Assembly (NCBI GenBank): GCA_030693515.1
Contig: JAUYAK010000124.1
Coordinates: 1 to 64,000, forward strand
From: Opitutaceae bacterium
GTDB taxonomy: Bacteria > Verrucomicrobiota > Verrucomicrobiia > Opitutales > Opitutaceae
DNA length: 64,000 nucleotides
Reading direction: 5' to 3'
Within the stretch, counting starts at the first letter, position 1. Each line of letters begins with the position of its first letter. Shown here in pieces: positions 12,120 to 62,415 of this stretch. A program made the translations under genes and the position numbers. Below the pieces are notes generated by a model that saw nothing but the letters and a program-made list of their open reading frames with translations, searched no databases and was not told where the DNA came from.

Positions 12120-12410
12120 TCAGAAGGTGGGTGTCAGCGCCCCGTCAGCCATCCCGAAGATTGCGAACAACGCGGCCATGATGGCGGCGGCCGCAGCGAT
12201 GATGATGCCGGCGACGATGCCCATCTTCCCGTCAGCGTCTCCCTTGGACATCTTGTCGGCGCCACTCCATACTTTGATCACGCCCCATAAAAACCCGGTG
12301 AGAAACATGATGCCGAGCCCCGCTTGAAAGCCATCGCGCAGAGCACCGGGGATTTGGGCGAGCAATGGCCCGGTGCTGTAGATACCACTCCATAGGGTAT
12401 AAAGGCTCAT
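12120..12410 (-). CDS. virB2: VirB2/TrbC-like pilin
   Basis: A 96-residue protein with two hydrophobic helices (about 26-47 and 62-86) separated by a short polar loop (SGADKMSKGDADGK), the usual pilin architecture. The N-terminus is unusually short for a pilin signal sequence. The ATG at 12410 has GGAG nine bases upstream, but that site is embedded in a long hairpin (see 12414-12495). It is the first gene of the secretion operon. Confidence 0.82.
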   Translation of the reverse strand: MSLYTLWSGIYSTGPLLAQIPGALRDGFQAGLGIMFLTGFLWGVIKVWSGADKMSKGDADGKMGIVAGIIIAAAAAIMAALFAIFGMADGALTPTF

Positions 12411-12413
12411 GAG

Positions 12414-12495
12414 ATAGGTCTCCGATTCGCCCGAAGTTGTCTGCGGAGATTACCGCAGTTCATTTGCTTCGGGCGGTCCAAATCGACAGACCTAT
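12414..12495 (-). promoter_or_regulatory. 82-nt multi-segment hairpin covering the virB2 ribosome-binding site
   Basis: Four nested complementary segments share one axis: ATAGGTCT (12414-12421) with AGACCTAT (12488-12495), CGATT (12423-12427) with AATCG (12481-12485), GCCCGAAG (12429-12436) with CTTCGGGC (12467-12474), and CTGCGG (12441-12446) with CCGCAG (12453-12458), for 27 base pairs in all. In virB2 mRNA the GGAG ribosome site lies in the outer stem, 3 bases before the start codon. The fold would block initiation unless opened. It does not match integron attC core sites. Confidence 0.75.
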
Positions 12496-12517
12496 TGCGA
12501 CCTAGAGCCGGACAGTT

Positions 12518-13405
12518 CTACAAATTTTTGGAACCGTTCGCTGATTTTAACAGCACGCTCAGCGGATATCGGAAGAAGGACTTGAAACGACGATTGAGAT
12601 GACTCAGGTCGGAAAAACCGCATTGGCGCCAGATTTCCTCACGGGTGTGCTTACCGCCTCTCGCCAACTCACGGGCTTTCAACAAGCGGCATTCCCAAAC
12701 ATAATCCATCGGTGTATTACCTGTCGTATTTCGGCACAACGGGGTAAACTGCTGGGAGCTGAGTCCTACGGCTCGCGCTAAGTCCGGGACACGGAAATGC
12801 ACCGCCATGTTCGTCTGGACATATTTGTCCATCCGCTGCCGCTGATCGTCAGATAGCTTCGTCCCTCGAATCGGGGCGCGTGGCGTAGCATGACTGACGA
12901 ACAGTCGTCTGACAACCAACGCCGAGGCACCAACAACGAGCGAGGCGTCAATCTCGGGCTCCGCACACAAGAAACAAATCGCGCCTGATAACTCCCAAAT
13001 CACGGCATCGGTCTTCGCCTCCGGGAGATTTTCACGAGCAAAAAGGGCCGTCAGGGTCTCCGCTGGAAATCGGCGCAGGAAGGACGGTTCGAGATAGAGT
13101 TCGATTGATTCGCCCTCCCTGTCCCAGCGGTCTTCGTGTTCGACGCCAGATGGTATGCAAAGGATGTGGCGGCCCGAGATCTCTTGATGCAGCCAGTCGC
13201 CGGAGGCACGCCTGCGCCGATGCAGGCCAGAAACGGTCTCGAAAATGAGAACGAACTTTGCCTGCGAGTGGAGCCGTGGCAGGACAACCCCGACACAGAC
13301 TCGGCGATGCACGACATAAAACCCCTTTCCCTTGAACACATGGTCGGATGGTCCCAACCCAAGCGCCTTTCTGAATTGATGCGTCAAACGGGTGCTCACG
13401 GTCAT
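12518..13405 (-). CDS. AraC-family transcriptional regulator
   Basis: A 295-residue protein. The C-terminal 100 residues form two helix-turn-helix motifs of the AraC/XylS type ([19 protein letters not shown] and [20 protein letters not shown]). The N-terminal part is a cupin-like sensor with [19 protein letters not shown]; it contains several Cys residues (ICFLCAEPE) that could sense metal or redox, which is speculative. Its start overlaps the stop of the copper ATPase gene (ATGA), so the two are co-transcribed, and it lies directly upstream of the secretion operon in the same direction. It may link metal status to transfer genes. Confidence 0.88.
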
Positions 13406-15807
13406 TGATCTACCGCCGCTACCAACAACCGCACTTTCCTCAGTCGCAGTGCATTGGTGATGACCGACACGGATGAAAGCGACATCGCCGCACCCGCAAT
13501 CATCGGACTGAGCAGCACGCCGAAGAACGGAAAGAGCGCCCCCGCAGCGATGGGCACACCGACGGTGTTGTAGACAAAAGCGAAGAACAGGTTTTGCCGG
13601 ATGTTTCGCATCGTCGCGCGCGAAAGGTGAATCGCCTTCGCGATTCCGCGAAGGTCTCCCTTCACGAGCGTGACGCCCGCGCTTTCCATCGCGACATCCG
13701 TGCCTGTGCCCATCGCGATGCCGACATCAGCCGCGGCAAGCGCGGGCGCGTCGTTGATGCCATCGCCGGCCATCGCGACGCGAGCGCCGTCGCGCTTGAG
13801 CGCTTCGACGAGCCGGATTTTATCGGCCGGCTCAACCTCCGCCTCGAAACGATCCAGGCCGAGTTGCTTCGCGACGGATTCCGCGGTGCGGCGGTTGTCG
13901 CCCGTCGCCATGACCAGCTTGATGCCGAGCCCGTGAAGATCGGCGATGGCCTCGCGTGTGGTGTCCTTGATCGGATCGGCCACCGCGAGCAGGCCAGCGA
14001 GGCGACCGTCGATCGCGACGAACAGCACGGTCTTCCCCTCGGCTTGTAGAGCGCTCGCGCGTTCGACACCTGATTGAGGAAGGGAGACGTGTTCGGCCTC
14101 GAGGAATTTCGATTTGCCGACGAGCACGATGCGACCATCAACCTTGCCGGCGACCCCGCCAGCCGTGACGGAGCGAAAATCGGCGGCGTCACGCAGCGAA
14201 ATCTTTTTCGCCTCGGCACCGCGCACAATGGCGGCGGCGAGCGGATGCTCCGAAGAGCGTTCCAGCGAAGCGGCGAGTTGAACGAGAGTCTTCTCGTCGG
14301 AGCCTTCAAACGTCACCACGTCCGCGAGCTGAGGACGGCCTTCTGTCAGCGTGCCGGTTTTGTCGATCACGAGCCATTGCACCTTGCCAAGCAGTTCCAG
14401 CGCCTCGGCGTTTTTGACGAGCACGCCTTCCTGCGCACCGCGGCCGATGCCGACCATGATCGACATCGGTGTGGCGAGACCGAGCGCGCAAGGACACGCG
14501 ATGATCAATACCGCGACCGCATTGACGATAGCGTAGGCAAGCCGCGGCTCGGGTCCGAAGAAAAACCAGATGGCGAACGTGAGCCCCGCGATGATGACGA
14601 CGGCGGGCACGAAGATCCGGGCGACCTTGTCGGCGAGCCCCTGAATCGGTGCGCGGCTGCGCTGCGCATCGGCGACCATGTTCACGATGCGCGCGAGCAT
14701 CGTGTCGGCGCCGATTTTCTCCGCGCGCATGATAAAGCCACCCGTCGCATTCACGGTGCCACCGGTCACGCGGTCGCCGGCCTTCTTCTCCACGGGCATC
14801 GACTCGCCGGTGAGCATCGACTCATCCACGGACGACGCTCCCTCTTCAATTACCCCATCAACCGCCACCTTCGCGCCGGGCCGCACGCGCAGCCGGTCGC
14901 CAACCTCCACTTCGGAAAGTGGCACTTCCTGATCACCGCTTTCGGTCACACGCAACGCGGTCGGCGGCGACAAGTTGAGGAGCGCTTTGATCGCGCTCGA
15001 CGTGCGTGCGCGGGCGCGCAGTTCGAGCACTTGCCCGAGCAGCACGAGGACCACGATGACCGCCGCCGCCTCAAAATATACGTCAACGACGCCGTGCGCT
15101 CGCATCGCCTCGGGAAAGACGCCCGGCAGGAAGAACGCCACGACACTGTAAATCCACGCTGCCCCTACGCCGATTGCGATCAGCGTGAACATATTCCAGT
15201 GGCCCGAGCGCAGCGATTTCGCGCCGCGCACGAAGAACGGCCACCCGGCCCAGAGCACGACCGGCGTTGAGAGCAGGAACTGCGTCCAGCGGCTCCAGGG
15301 AGCGTTCACCACATGCATCAGCGACGGCACGAGGTGCAGCATTCCGAGCACGAAAACCGGCAGTGTGAGCGCCGCGCCGATCCAAAACCGACGCGTCATG
15401 TCGCGCAGCTCGTGATTTTCTTCCGGCGCAGCGCTCACGGTTTTCGGTTCAAGCGCCATGCCGCAGATGGGGCACTCGCCCGGATGATCCTGCTCGATCT
15501 GGGGATGCATCGGGCAGGTGTAGATTGTTTTTCCGGCCAGCGGGACCGCAGCATTGCGTTCCAATGCCATGCCGCATTTCGGACAATCCCCCGGCTTGTC
15601 CGACTCGACGCCGGGACACATCGGACAATAATACGCGGCAGACGCCGACGGTTTCACGTCTCCGTGGTGCCCGTGGCCCTGAGGCTGATCGCCGTGGTGT
15701 GCACACGCATGGCCGTCGTGTTCGGCAGGCTCGGCCTTCGGCGCGGGTTTCTTGCCGTCGGGTGCGTCGTCGCCGTTCGGAGGATGCTTGTGCGAGTGAT
15801 GGTTCAT
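13402..15807 (-). CDS. Copper-exporting P1B-type ATPase with two N-terminal heavy-metal-binding domains
   Basis: An 801-residue inner-membrane pump that should export Cu(I) from the cytoplasm. The N-terminus is His-rich and carries two HMBD/YHS-like modules (residues 60-83 and 96-120; YTCPMHPQI and ECPICGMAL) in place of classic HMA domains. Eight membrane helices are expected. Key sites: TGES (333-336), CPC in the metal-binding membrane helix (438-440), DKTGT with phosphorylated Asp482, TGDN and GDGINDAP. This architecture resembles SilP/CopA-2 type pumps. It lies 29 bases after the CorE-like sigma gene and overlaps the AraC gene by 4 bases. Confidence 0.95.
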
Positions 15808-59936: not shown

Positions 59937-60887
59937 TCAGGCCGTCGGCGCAATTAGTCCCAAGCGACTGCCATCGCCGGTCACGACGAGTTGGCCCGAG
60001 GATTTCTCGCCGCGCAACAGCGCGTCGGCGAGAGCGTCCTGCATGAACCGCTCCACTGCTCCGCGCATCGGGCGTGCGCCCAGCGAGCGATGGTAACCTT
60101 GCCGCACCAGGAATTCGATCGCATCCGCGCTCACCTCCACGGTGTGACCCATGGCAGAGAGGCGGGCGATTTCGCTTTCGATCATCCCGGCGCAGATCGC
60201 GCGTTGGGTGGCGTAGTCGAGACGGCCGAATACCACGATTTCGTTGACGCGGCCCACCAGTTCCGGGCGCAGCCGCTCGCGCACCCGCATCAACACCGTG
60301 CGTTCGACCGACGCGAACGGCGCGGATTCCATGCGCATGGTTTCTTCCGACCCGATGTTCGAGGTGCAAACGATATAGAACGGCCGCAAGTCCAACGTCT
60401 CGCCGGTGGCCAGCGTCACGCGAGCGTCCTCGAGGATTTGCAGGAATAAGTCCAAGACCAATGGATGCGCTTTTTCGACTTCGTCGAAAAGCAATGTGCC
60501 GCGTGTCGCAGTTCGCAGCGCGCGCCCAAGCAAGCCGCGATCATCGCGGCTCTCGCCGAGGAGTTTATCGACGGAGCCCTGGAGTTGATATTCGGACATG
60601 TCGAACCGCACCGGCGCCGCACCATCGAAGAGATAGTCCGTGAACACATTGGTCGTCTCCGTTTTTCCCACGCCCGTCGGTCCGACCAAGAGGAAGGAGC
60701 CGCGCGGCCGGCGCGGATGCGCGAACCCAAGTTCGCCACGCGTCAGCACCGAACAGATGCGGGGCAGCGCATGTTGCTGGCCCCGAATCTTGGCGGCCAG
60801 ATGGGACGGCAGTCGGCGCAGTCGATCCGTCGTGGCGGAGCCGTTGCCGCCGGTCGTAACCGCTGACGCGCTCAATTGCGAAACCAT
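59937..60887 (-). CDS. Clp-type AAA+ ATPase of the transfer region
   Basis: A 316-residue protein corresponding to the second AAA+ module of ClpA/ClpB: Walker A GPTGVGKTETTN (about 69-80), DMSEY pore-loop region, Walker B LLFDEVEKAHP, sensor 1 CTSNIGS and sensor 2 GARPMRGAVERF. The N-terminal domain, the first AAA+ module and the ClpP-binding loop are absent. Its start overlaps the coupling-protein gene by 16 bases, tying it to conjugation. It could unfold or remodel a transfer protein such as the relaxase. Confidence 0.92.
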   Translation of the reverse strand: MVSQLSASAVTTGGNGSATTDRLRRLPSHLAAKIRGQQHALPRICSVLTRGELGFAHPRRPRGSFLLVGPTGVGKTETTNVFTDYLFDGAAPVRFDMSEYQLQGSVDKLLGESRDDRGLLGRALRTATRGTLLFDEVEKAHPLVLDLFLQILEDARVTLATGETLDLRPFYIVCTSNIGSEETMRMESAPFASVERTVLMRVRERLRPELVGRVNEIVVFGRLDYATQRAICAGMIESEIARLSAMGHTVEVSADAIEFLVRQGYHRSLGARPMRGAVERFMQDALADALLRGEKSSGQLVVTGDGSRLGLIAPTA

Positions 60888-62359
60888 GACGGCACCTTTC
60901 CATCCGCTCCACAGGGCGGGAGCGTGACCTTGCGAAACCCGCCATTGCAGTGCTGCACCACGGCTTCAAACCGCCGCAGCTTTCGGAGCTGATACGGTTC
61001 GAACCAGTATTTATCCTCGTCCGTCACGGAGGTGCTGCGCTTGCCGCCGGTATAACCAACGGTGCGCTTCTTGGCCTTGCGCTTCCCGATCGTGTCCGCC
61101 GCGATCTTCGCGGACTCCTCGTCAGCCGCACAGAAAGTGACCCGGTTGGCCATGTTGGCGATGAAGACCTTTGCTTTTCGCTCATCCCCCATCGGCGGAA
61201 TGAGGGATTGATACGACTGCGTTGCGGCCACCACAGTGGCGCGCGCCTCGCGAATCACATCGACCACATTGTAGTCGGACATCCCGTCGTCGGAGGCGGT
61301 CACGATTTTCTGTGCTTCGTCCGCCCAGAGAATGAGGAGGTTGTCATTCGCACGCACGGCGGCCGGTTTGTCGAATCGGCGCAACGCCTGGGAGTAGAAC
61401 GAAAGTTTCAAGAGCGTATTGATATAGCGGCGCTCGACTTGAAACCGCTGGGGCATCGAAACGCATACGATCTTGCCGAGCGCCAAATCGTCGAAACTGA
61501 AACTCGGATTCGAGGGGCAAAAAACTTCCGCCATGCTCGGCTCCGCAAAATAGTGGAGGTAGTTCGCGATGGTCGTTTTGATGCCACCGAGCTGTTCGGC
61601 CGGTTGCGCGCGAAACGCACTTTCGTAGTGCTCCACCAGTGCCCGTGACTCCGGGGTATTTTGCTCTCCCAGCACTTCCATGGCTTCCGCCAGCGCTTGG
61701 TCCGAGGTGAGCAGGCGATACGTTCTCGCCAGTGTCACCGGCACCCCGGCCGTCGCCAGGACATGGAACGCGAACTCCATCTGCACCTGGGCCTGCATTC
61801 GGAAAAACGTTTGCTCCGAGCGCTGGCCGACCGAAGCGGCCACGTCACAGACGATCTTGGCCTTGGCGGAAAACGGCAGATGGGGATTGGCCAGAAAATT
61901 AAACGTGTGCACCGGTTTCCAGTCGGATGCCGCATCGGATGGCCGGACCTGCAAGAGAATCAGATCTTTCTCGCGGCCGAGTTCGCGCAACATTGGGCGC
62001 AGCGTTTCCCAATACAGCCCCTTGTCATCGACGCAGACGCCGCCCCAATTCGGGCAATTCTGCGACACCTGCCACAGCATCCGATTGATCGCAGCACTCG
62101 TCTTGCCCGTGCCGACCTGCCCAGTGATGAGCCAGCCCCGGCAAAAGTCTTCCATCGGCCATAAGAATCCGCCCAAGCGCAACACGGGCTTCGCCATTCG
62201 GCGTCGCGAGTTGCTAACGGCGCAGTAAAGCTGCCAGCACGCGAACACCGCAAAACCGCTGGCGACGCCGCGCGCGATGAAAGCGCCAGGCCACAGCGCG
62301 AACGCGATCCAGACGCTCCCAGCGGCAAGCAAGAGATTCAGCAGCATATCGCGGCGCAT
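60872..62359 (-). CDS. virD4: VirD4/TraD-type coupling protein
   Basis: A 495-residue ATPase from the ATG at 62359 (a TTG at 62389 is possible). Two N-terminal membrane helices (about 8-45) are followed by Walker A (ITGQVGTGKTSAAIN), Walker B (LLILWADEAQ) and the C-terminal segment NRVTFCAADEESAKIAADTIG shared with TraD/TraG proteins. Coupling proteins bring the relaxase-DNA complex to the secretion channel. It lies between a small gene and the AAA+ gene. Confidence 0.93.
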   Translation of the reverse strand: MRRDMLLNLLLAAGSVWIAFALWPGAFIARGVASGFAVFACWQLYCAVSNSRRRMAKPVLRLGGFLWPMEDFCRGWLITGQVGTGKTSAAINRMLWQVSQNCPNWGGVCVDDKGLYWETLRPMLRELGREKDLILLQVRPSDAASDWKPVHTFNFLANPHLPFSAKAKIVCDVAASVGQRSEQTFFRMQAQVQMEFAFHVLATAGVPVTLARTYRLLTSDQALAEAMEVLGEQNTPESRALVEHYESAFRAQPAEQLGGIKTTIANYLHYFAEPSMAEVFCPSNPSFSFDDLALGKIVCVSMPQRFQVERRYINTLLKLSFYSQALRRFDKPAAVRANDNLLILWADEAQKIVTASDDGMSDYNVVDVIREARATVVAATQSYQSLIPPMGDERKAKVFIANMANRVTFCAADEESAKIAADTIGKRKAKKRTVGYTGGKRSTSVTDEDKYWFEPYQLRKLRRFEAVVQHCNGGFRKVTLPPCGADGKVPSWFRN

Positions 62360-62415
62360 GGCGCCTACGATAACTGACCTTCGAATCAAAATTCGGGTTA
62401 GAACGGTTCGCCGAT

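Follow-up and report, generated by a model that had tools for sequence, protein, structure and literature searches.

A putative AraC-type promoter and a predicted structured 5' leader upstream of a VirB2-like pilin gene in an Opitutaceae bacterium

Introduction

What does an 82-nt hairpin do directly in front of a conjugative pilin gene? The question was raised by a 64,000-nucleotide stretch of Opitutaceae DNA (hereafter the window), whose preliminary description proposed that the hairpin locks the ribosome site of the gene. A literature search on Opitutaceae conjugative elements yielded little. In Tn10/IS10 and in phage T4 gene e, transcripts from outside promoters fold back over the start site, and this fold-back protection has been experimentally proven. 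In Bacillus subtilis, the ribosome-binding site of sigG is hidden by a hairpin of 20+ pairs when transcription reads through from the operon upstream, but not in transcripts of the gene's own promoter, which cannot form this hairpin; the leader also contains a second, small hairpin (PMC5942855). In the present study, we analysed the hairpin, its genetic surroundings and the corresponding region of related pilin genes.

Gene order around the pilin gene

The genes that matter here are as follows.

12120-12410, minus strand: VirB2-like conjugative pilin gene, 96 aa, ATG at 12410-12408 (ORF; orthologues in the same gene order)
12518-13405, minus strand: AraC-family regulator gene (Pfam HTH_18, 7e-17), co-oriented with and directly upstream of the pilin gene
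13402-15807, minus strand: Cu P-type ATPase ORF, overlapping the start of araC
13402-59979, minus strand: metal-efflux cargo of about 46 kb between the araC and AAA ATPase genes of the transfer region (ORFs, gene order)
59937-60887: AAA ATPase gene; AAA and VirD4-like genes together occupy 59937-62389

A Pfam search of the pilin-like protein returned no match. The N-termini of its orthologues looked signal-peptide-like by eye, and the orthologous genes were found in the same order, ahead of PrgI-like and VirB4-like genes. Protein searches across Opitutaceae and other Verrucomicrobia recovered relatives of the pilin that fell into two clades. In clade A, which includes the window, an araC-type gene lies directly upstream of the pilin gene in the same direction; clade-B pilin genes have a small, divergently oriented neighbour. 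Searches with the araC gene at order and phylum level revealed no additional araC-pilin pairs, and neither a plasmid collection (searched by protein and DNA) nor viral contigs gave a match.

The cargo consists of the Cu P-type ATPase, a multicopper-oxidase-like protein, CusA/CzcA-like RND pumps and another P-type ATPase. In the nearest orthologue (L032), the AAA gene abuts araC, whereas about 46 kb of metal-efflux genes lie between the two in the window. This comparison of gene order shows an apparent insertion of the metal cargo directly upstream of araC. Both araC and the cargo genes are co-directional with the pilin gene, and no coding-strand terminator was found. The cargo would be the likely source of read-through, and its transcripts could enter araC and the pilin gene.

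A different arrangement was observed in clade B, where about 35 loci carry a long inverted repeat immediately ahead of the pilin ATG whose loop holds an invariant TTGACAAG (clade B loci: L014-L018, L023-L026, L043-L056 and L079-L105, including G000:C77 (L023) and G000:C57 (L096) of the window's own genome). Among 32 distinct rows, two-sided changes occurred at 18 of the 18 arm pairs (160 cells, compared with 28-54 in slid registers), and 85% stayed paired. At most of these loci, the product of a divergent gene resembles, by eye, a two-domain ribbon-helix-helix regulator; a Pfam search of this protein gave no match. The repeat and the divergent gene look like a co-evolving pair of operator and regulator.

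Fold and rarity of the hairpin

Because the pilin-like ORF is on the minus strand, the hairpin at 12414-12495 belongs to the upstream region of this gene. It lies directly 5' of the gene on the same strand and stops 3 nt short of the ATG. The predicted fold comprised about 31 pairs in segments of 8 + 6 + 9 + 2 + 6, with the following parts, all on the minus strand.

12495-12488 with 12414-12421: outer 8 pairs
12486-12481 with 12422-12427: outer 6 pairs
12475-12467 with 12428-12436: inner 9 pairs
12458-12453 with 12441-12446: apical 6 pairs, CTGCGG/CCGCAG
12488-12495: left arm of the outer stem, ATAGGTCT, pairing together with 12486-12481
12414-12427: right arm of the outer stem, AATCGGAGACCTAT, holding GGAG (the Shine-Dalgarno site, 12423-12420)
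12428-12475: inner stem-loop, made of CGCCCGAAG, CTTCGGGCG and the apical stem; predicted 5' leader hairpin

The fold bore out two claims of the preliminary description, namely a four-segment hairpin ending 3 nt before the pilin start and a GGAG inside its outer stem. A comparison of free energy with shuffled controls had also been proposed: the 85 nt at 12411-12495, folded as the plus strand, gave a minimum free energy of -41.9 kcal/mol (z -6.05), which none of 200 shuffles equalled. The same hairpin was retained in a 151-nt fold of the transcribed minus strand (-52.5 kcal/mol, z -3.45), and 85-nt windows of that strand gave z values down to -5.3. With a z of about -5 to -6, the hairpin ranked first when 12,784 stretches of 85 nt from the two strands of the window were compared. 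The outer arms alone were not exceptional for this GC-rich DNA, since 52 of 5,112 equally spaced 20-mer pairs in the window paired as well or better.

Three regulatory devices had been suggested for the hairpin, and the results supported none of them. A thermometer needs a marginally stable Shine-Dalgarno hairpin whose melting falls within a physiological range, so an RNA thermometer was rejected at about -40 kcal/mol, which is far too stable, and no Rfam thermometer family was matched. A riboswitch was rejected because the Rfam search of the hairpin found no match up to E 5 and a conserved sequence core was absent, the leaders differing between orthologues. An attenuator based on an intrinsic terminator was rejected because the coding strand has no U-tract and the sole terminator-like site lies on the other strand. 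A mobile repeat was likewise rejected: a search for further copies in the own genome gave chance-level matches only, so the sequence is single-copy.

The window also contains an 18-codon ORF (12407-12463, minus strand) inside the hairpin, ending in an ATGA that overlaps the pilin start. Its translation would open the hairpin and couple a leader peptide to pilin synthesis. Such coupling is highly improbable, given that the small ORF is absent from most orthologues, including L032, and has a weak Shine-Dalgarno site.

Promoter-like layout in relatives

To compare the upstream regions, 21 gaps in front of clade-A pilin genes were aligned by eye on the second of two repeats. A promoter-like layout was observed in 19 of them (18 relatives and the window, in 11 similarity groups), with otherwise little common sequence. 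The layout consists of two direct repeats, GTCC.AAAAAT and GTCCAA, with a spacing of exactly 21 bp, followed by GG and a -10-like hexamer. In all 19 loci the hexamer was fixed at positions 28-33 after repeat 2 (constant +27), and the conserved columns were GG26-27 and T33 (91%). The hexamers of relatives included CATAAT, TAGAGT, CAAAAT and CATGAT. In the window, the elements are placed as follows.

12514-12534, minus strand: putative AraC half-site 1, GTTCCAAAAATTTGTAGAACT, a direct repeat that precedes half-site 2 by 21 bp and is conserved across 11 orthologue groups
12502-12513, minus strand: putative AraC half-site 2, GTCCGGCTCTAG, a conserved GTCCAA-like repeat
12481-12486, minus strand: putative -10 hexamer TCGATT, within the left part of the hairpin, at a fixed position in 19 loci
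12472-12478 (about 12474), minus strand: predicted transcription start zone, about 7 nt past the -10 hexamer, from whose position it was deduced

AraC-family half-sites typically lie 21 bp apart, and promoters activated by AraC/XylS-type regulators carry two direct half-sites at this distance beside the promoter. The clade-A loci resemble them in the adjacent regulator gene and in conserved, putative direct half-sites that are spaced by about 21 bp and flank the predicted promoter; unlike in those promoters, the half-site consensus, GTCCNAAAAAT, is specific to these loci. The hexamer TCGATT of the window is a poor one (3/6 match), and no sigma-70 consensus promoter was found in its gap. Because the -10-like hexamer occupies 12486-12481, transcription would begin at about 12472-12478, where the inner stem CGCCCGAAG/CTTCGGGCG has its base. 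With a start near 12474, the outer left arm ATAGGTCT and the adjoining GTCGATT would be promoter DNA, absent from RNA made from the gene's own promoter.

Some clade-A loci differ in detail. One orthologue (L031:3880-4003) has araC beside the pilin gene without the repeats and without a notable hairpin. Most clade-A relatives carry a C/T-rich tract (TCTCCGCC, CTCCCGCC), not a Shine-Dalgarno sequence, in the last 8-10 nt before the pilin ATG; GGAG in this place occurs only in the window and L032 among the clade-A loci.

The dyad might also act as DNA, as an operator for a protein covering the -10 hexamer and the gene start. The co-varying inverted repeat at the same place in clade B, with its divergent ribbon-helix-helix-like gene, speaks for this reading. 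AraC proteins, however, usually use direct repeats, which are present here, and the arms in the window are long and interrupted and differ from those of the nearest orthologue. We consider an operator very unlikely.

Leader structure in relatives

The arm sequences were unrelated outside close groups, which limited alignment-based covariation to the pair of the window and L032; swap and control tests were therefore used in place of a search for a common helix. The leader of the window folded with a z of -5.0. Across the family, predicted leaders had a mean z of -1.8, compared with -0.26 for controls taken from the same loci (P=0.005 in a paired Wilcoxon test that left out the window). The 5' part of a leader also paired better with its own middle than with the middles of other groups (swap test, P=0.005 without the window). 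In the lower inner stem, L032 kept C-G, G-C, A-T and G-C pairs of the window and had one pair clearly changed on both sides (A-T to G-C) and another changed on one side (C-G to U-G). The leader sequences themselves differed among orthologues. These results gave modest but consistent support for a leader stem-loop that is a family trait in structure, not in sequence, and that would have been selected as structure.

In L032, 6 of the 14 pairs of the outer stem were kept and 8 were broken, with no two-sided change in that register, and a different helix can cover its ATG. The pair-preserving changes expected by the preliminary description were thus seen in the lower inner stem of L032 but not in most of the outer lock. 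An outer lock is possible and would be specific to this lineage, rather than an established family feature.

Pairing of the Shine-Dalgarno site

In RNA containing the whole hairpin, the Shine-Dalgarno site was about 5% unpaired (95% paired), and opening the region from -15 to +3 cost 10.7 kcal/mol. In RNA from the predicted start at about 12474, it was about 21% unpaired, at an opening cost of 4.8 kcal/mol. Since the occlusion drops without the promoter segment, a lock is physically meaningful only for read-through RNA. The proposed lock on the ribosome site is thus plausible for the whole-hairpin RNA, but the predicted start would remove its outer left arm. Pairing between promoter and start was slightly better in cis than after swapping across the family (P=0.02 without the window); including the window gave P=0.002, although the window had been selected for its hairpin. 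The costs of opening the start were not significantly raised over shuffled promoters in the family (Fisher P=0.09), and the window alone gave p=0.15 against a shuffled promoter segment. A read-through lock across the family is at best suggestive.

According to a further reading, every pilin mRNA contains the complete hairpin, which forms a regulated lock, switched by temperature, a ligand or a protein. The 95% paired site in long RNA and the very low folding energy fit this reading, which is nevertheless quite unlikely: the predicted promoter lies within the left arm, the outer lock is not conserved in L032, no Rfam family was matched, and the fold is far too stable for a thermometer.

Alternatively, only the inner stem-loop matters, as a generic 5' leader hairpin that stabilises the message or tunes translation, and the outer arms arose by accident in this lineage, for example as a quasipalindrome perfected by template switching. 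Of the two structures, only the inner one behaves as a family trait, and about 1% of random arm pairs in the window reach the pairing of the outer arms. Stabilising 5' stem-loops of this kind are known from Acinetobacter recA and Helicobacter vacA (PMC7509114); there, too, a structured 5' leader precedes the coding region at a short distance, the one here being predicted from sequence. On the other side, the inner and outer segments stack so that the Shine-Dalgarno site lies precisely within, and together they form the most extreme hairpin of the window. We regard this reading as somewhat unlikely.

Discussion

Computation showed the fold, its rarity, a layout common to relatives and an excess of leader structure across the family. 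The reading that we tentatively prefer, as possible rather than assured, combines an AraC-type promoter and a structured 5' leader with a lineage-specific, sigG-like lock against read-through. Judging from conservation, the AraC-type regulator encoded just upstream would bind the two direct repeats (12534-12502) and activate a promoter with its -10 hexamer at 12486-12481. The pilin messenger would then have its 5' end near 12474, where the inner stem begins, and would carry a 5' stem-loop that leaves the Shine-Dalgarno site in a weakly paired tail. Such a stem-loop may protect an abundant pilin message or tune its translation. Read-through RNA from araC and the metal cargo would include the promoter region and, in this lineage, fold into the full 82-nt hairpin; with the Shine-Dalgarno site hidden, no pilin would be made from it.

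The closest parallel is sigG, with which the locus shares a ribosome-binding site paired with sequence further upstream (here GGAG, in long RNA). The conserved promoter-like elements predict that own-promoter RNA would lack the left arm, a geometry equal to that of sigG but with promoter and start predicted rather than mapped. It differs from sigG in that the regulator is of the AraC type and not a sigma factor, the gene encodes a conjugative pilin, and the lock appears not to be conserved beyond its own lineage. Transcripts from outside would also fold over the start of a mobile-element gene, as they do in Tn10/IS10 and phage T4 gene e.

A more specific proposal, which we consider unlikely though worth stating, is that the conjugative element silences its pilin against read-through from its own metal cargo by placing the promoter inside the arm of the Shine-Dalgarno lock, so that only AraC-activated transcripts would be translated. 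If true, a large inducible cargo could sit directly upstream of the transfer operon without its induction triggering costly pilus synthesis. It would also provide a testable promoter and regulator model for the conjugative elements of Opitutaceae.
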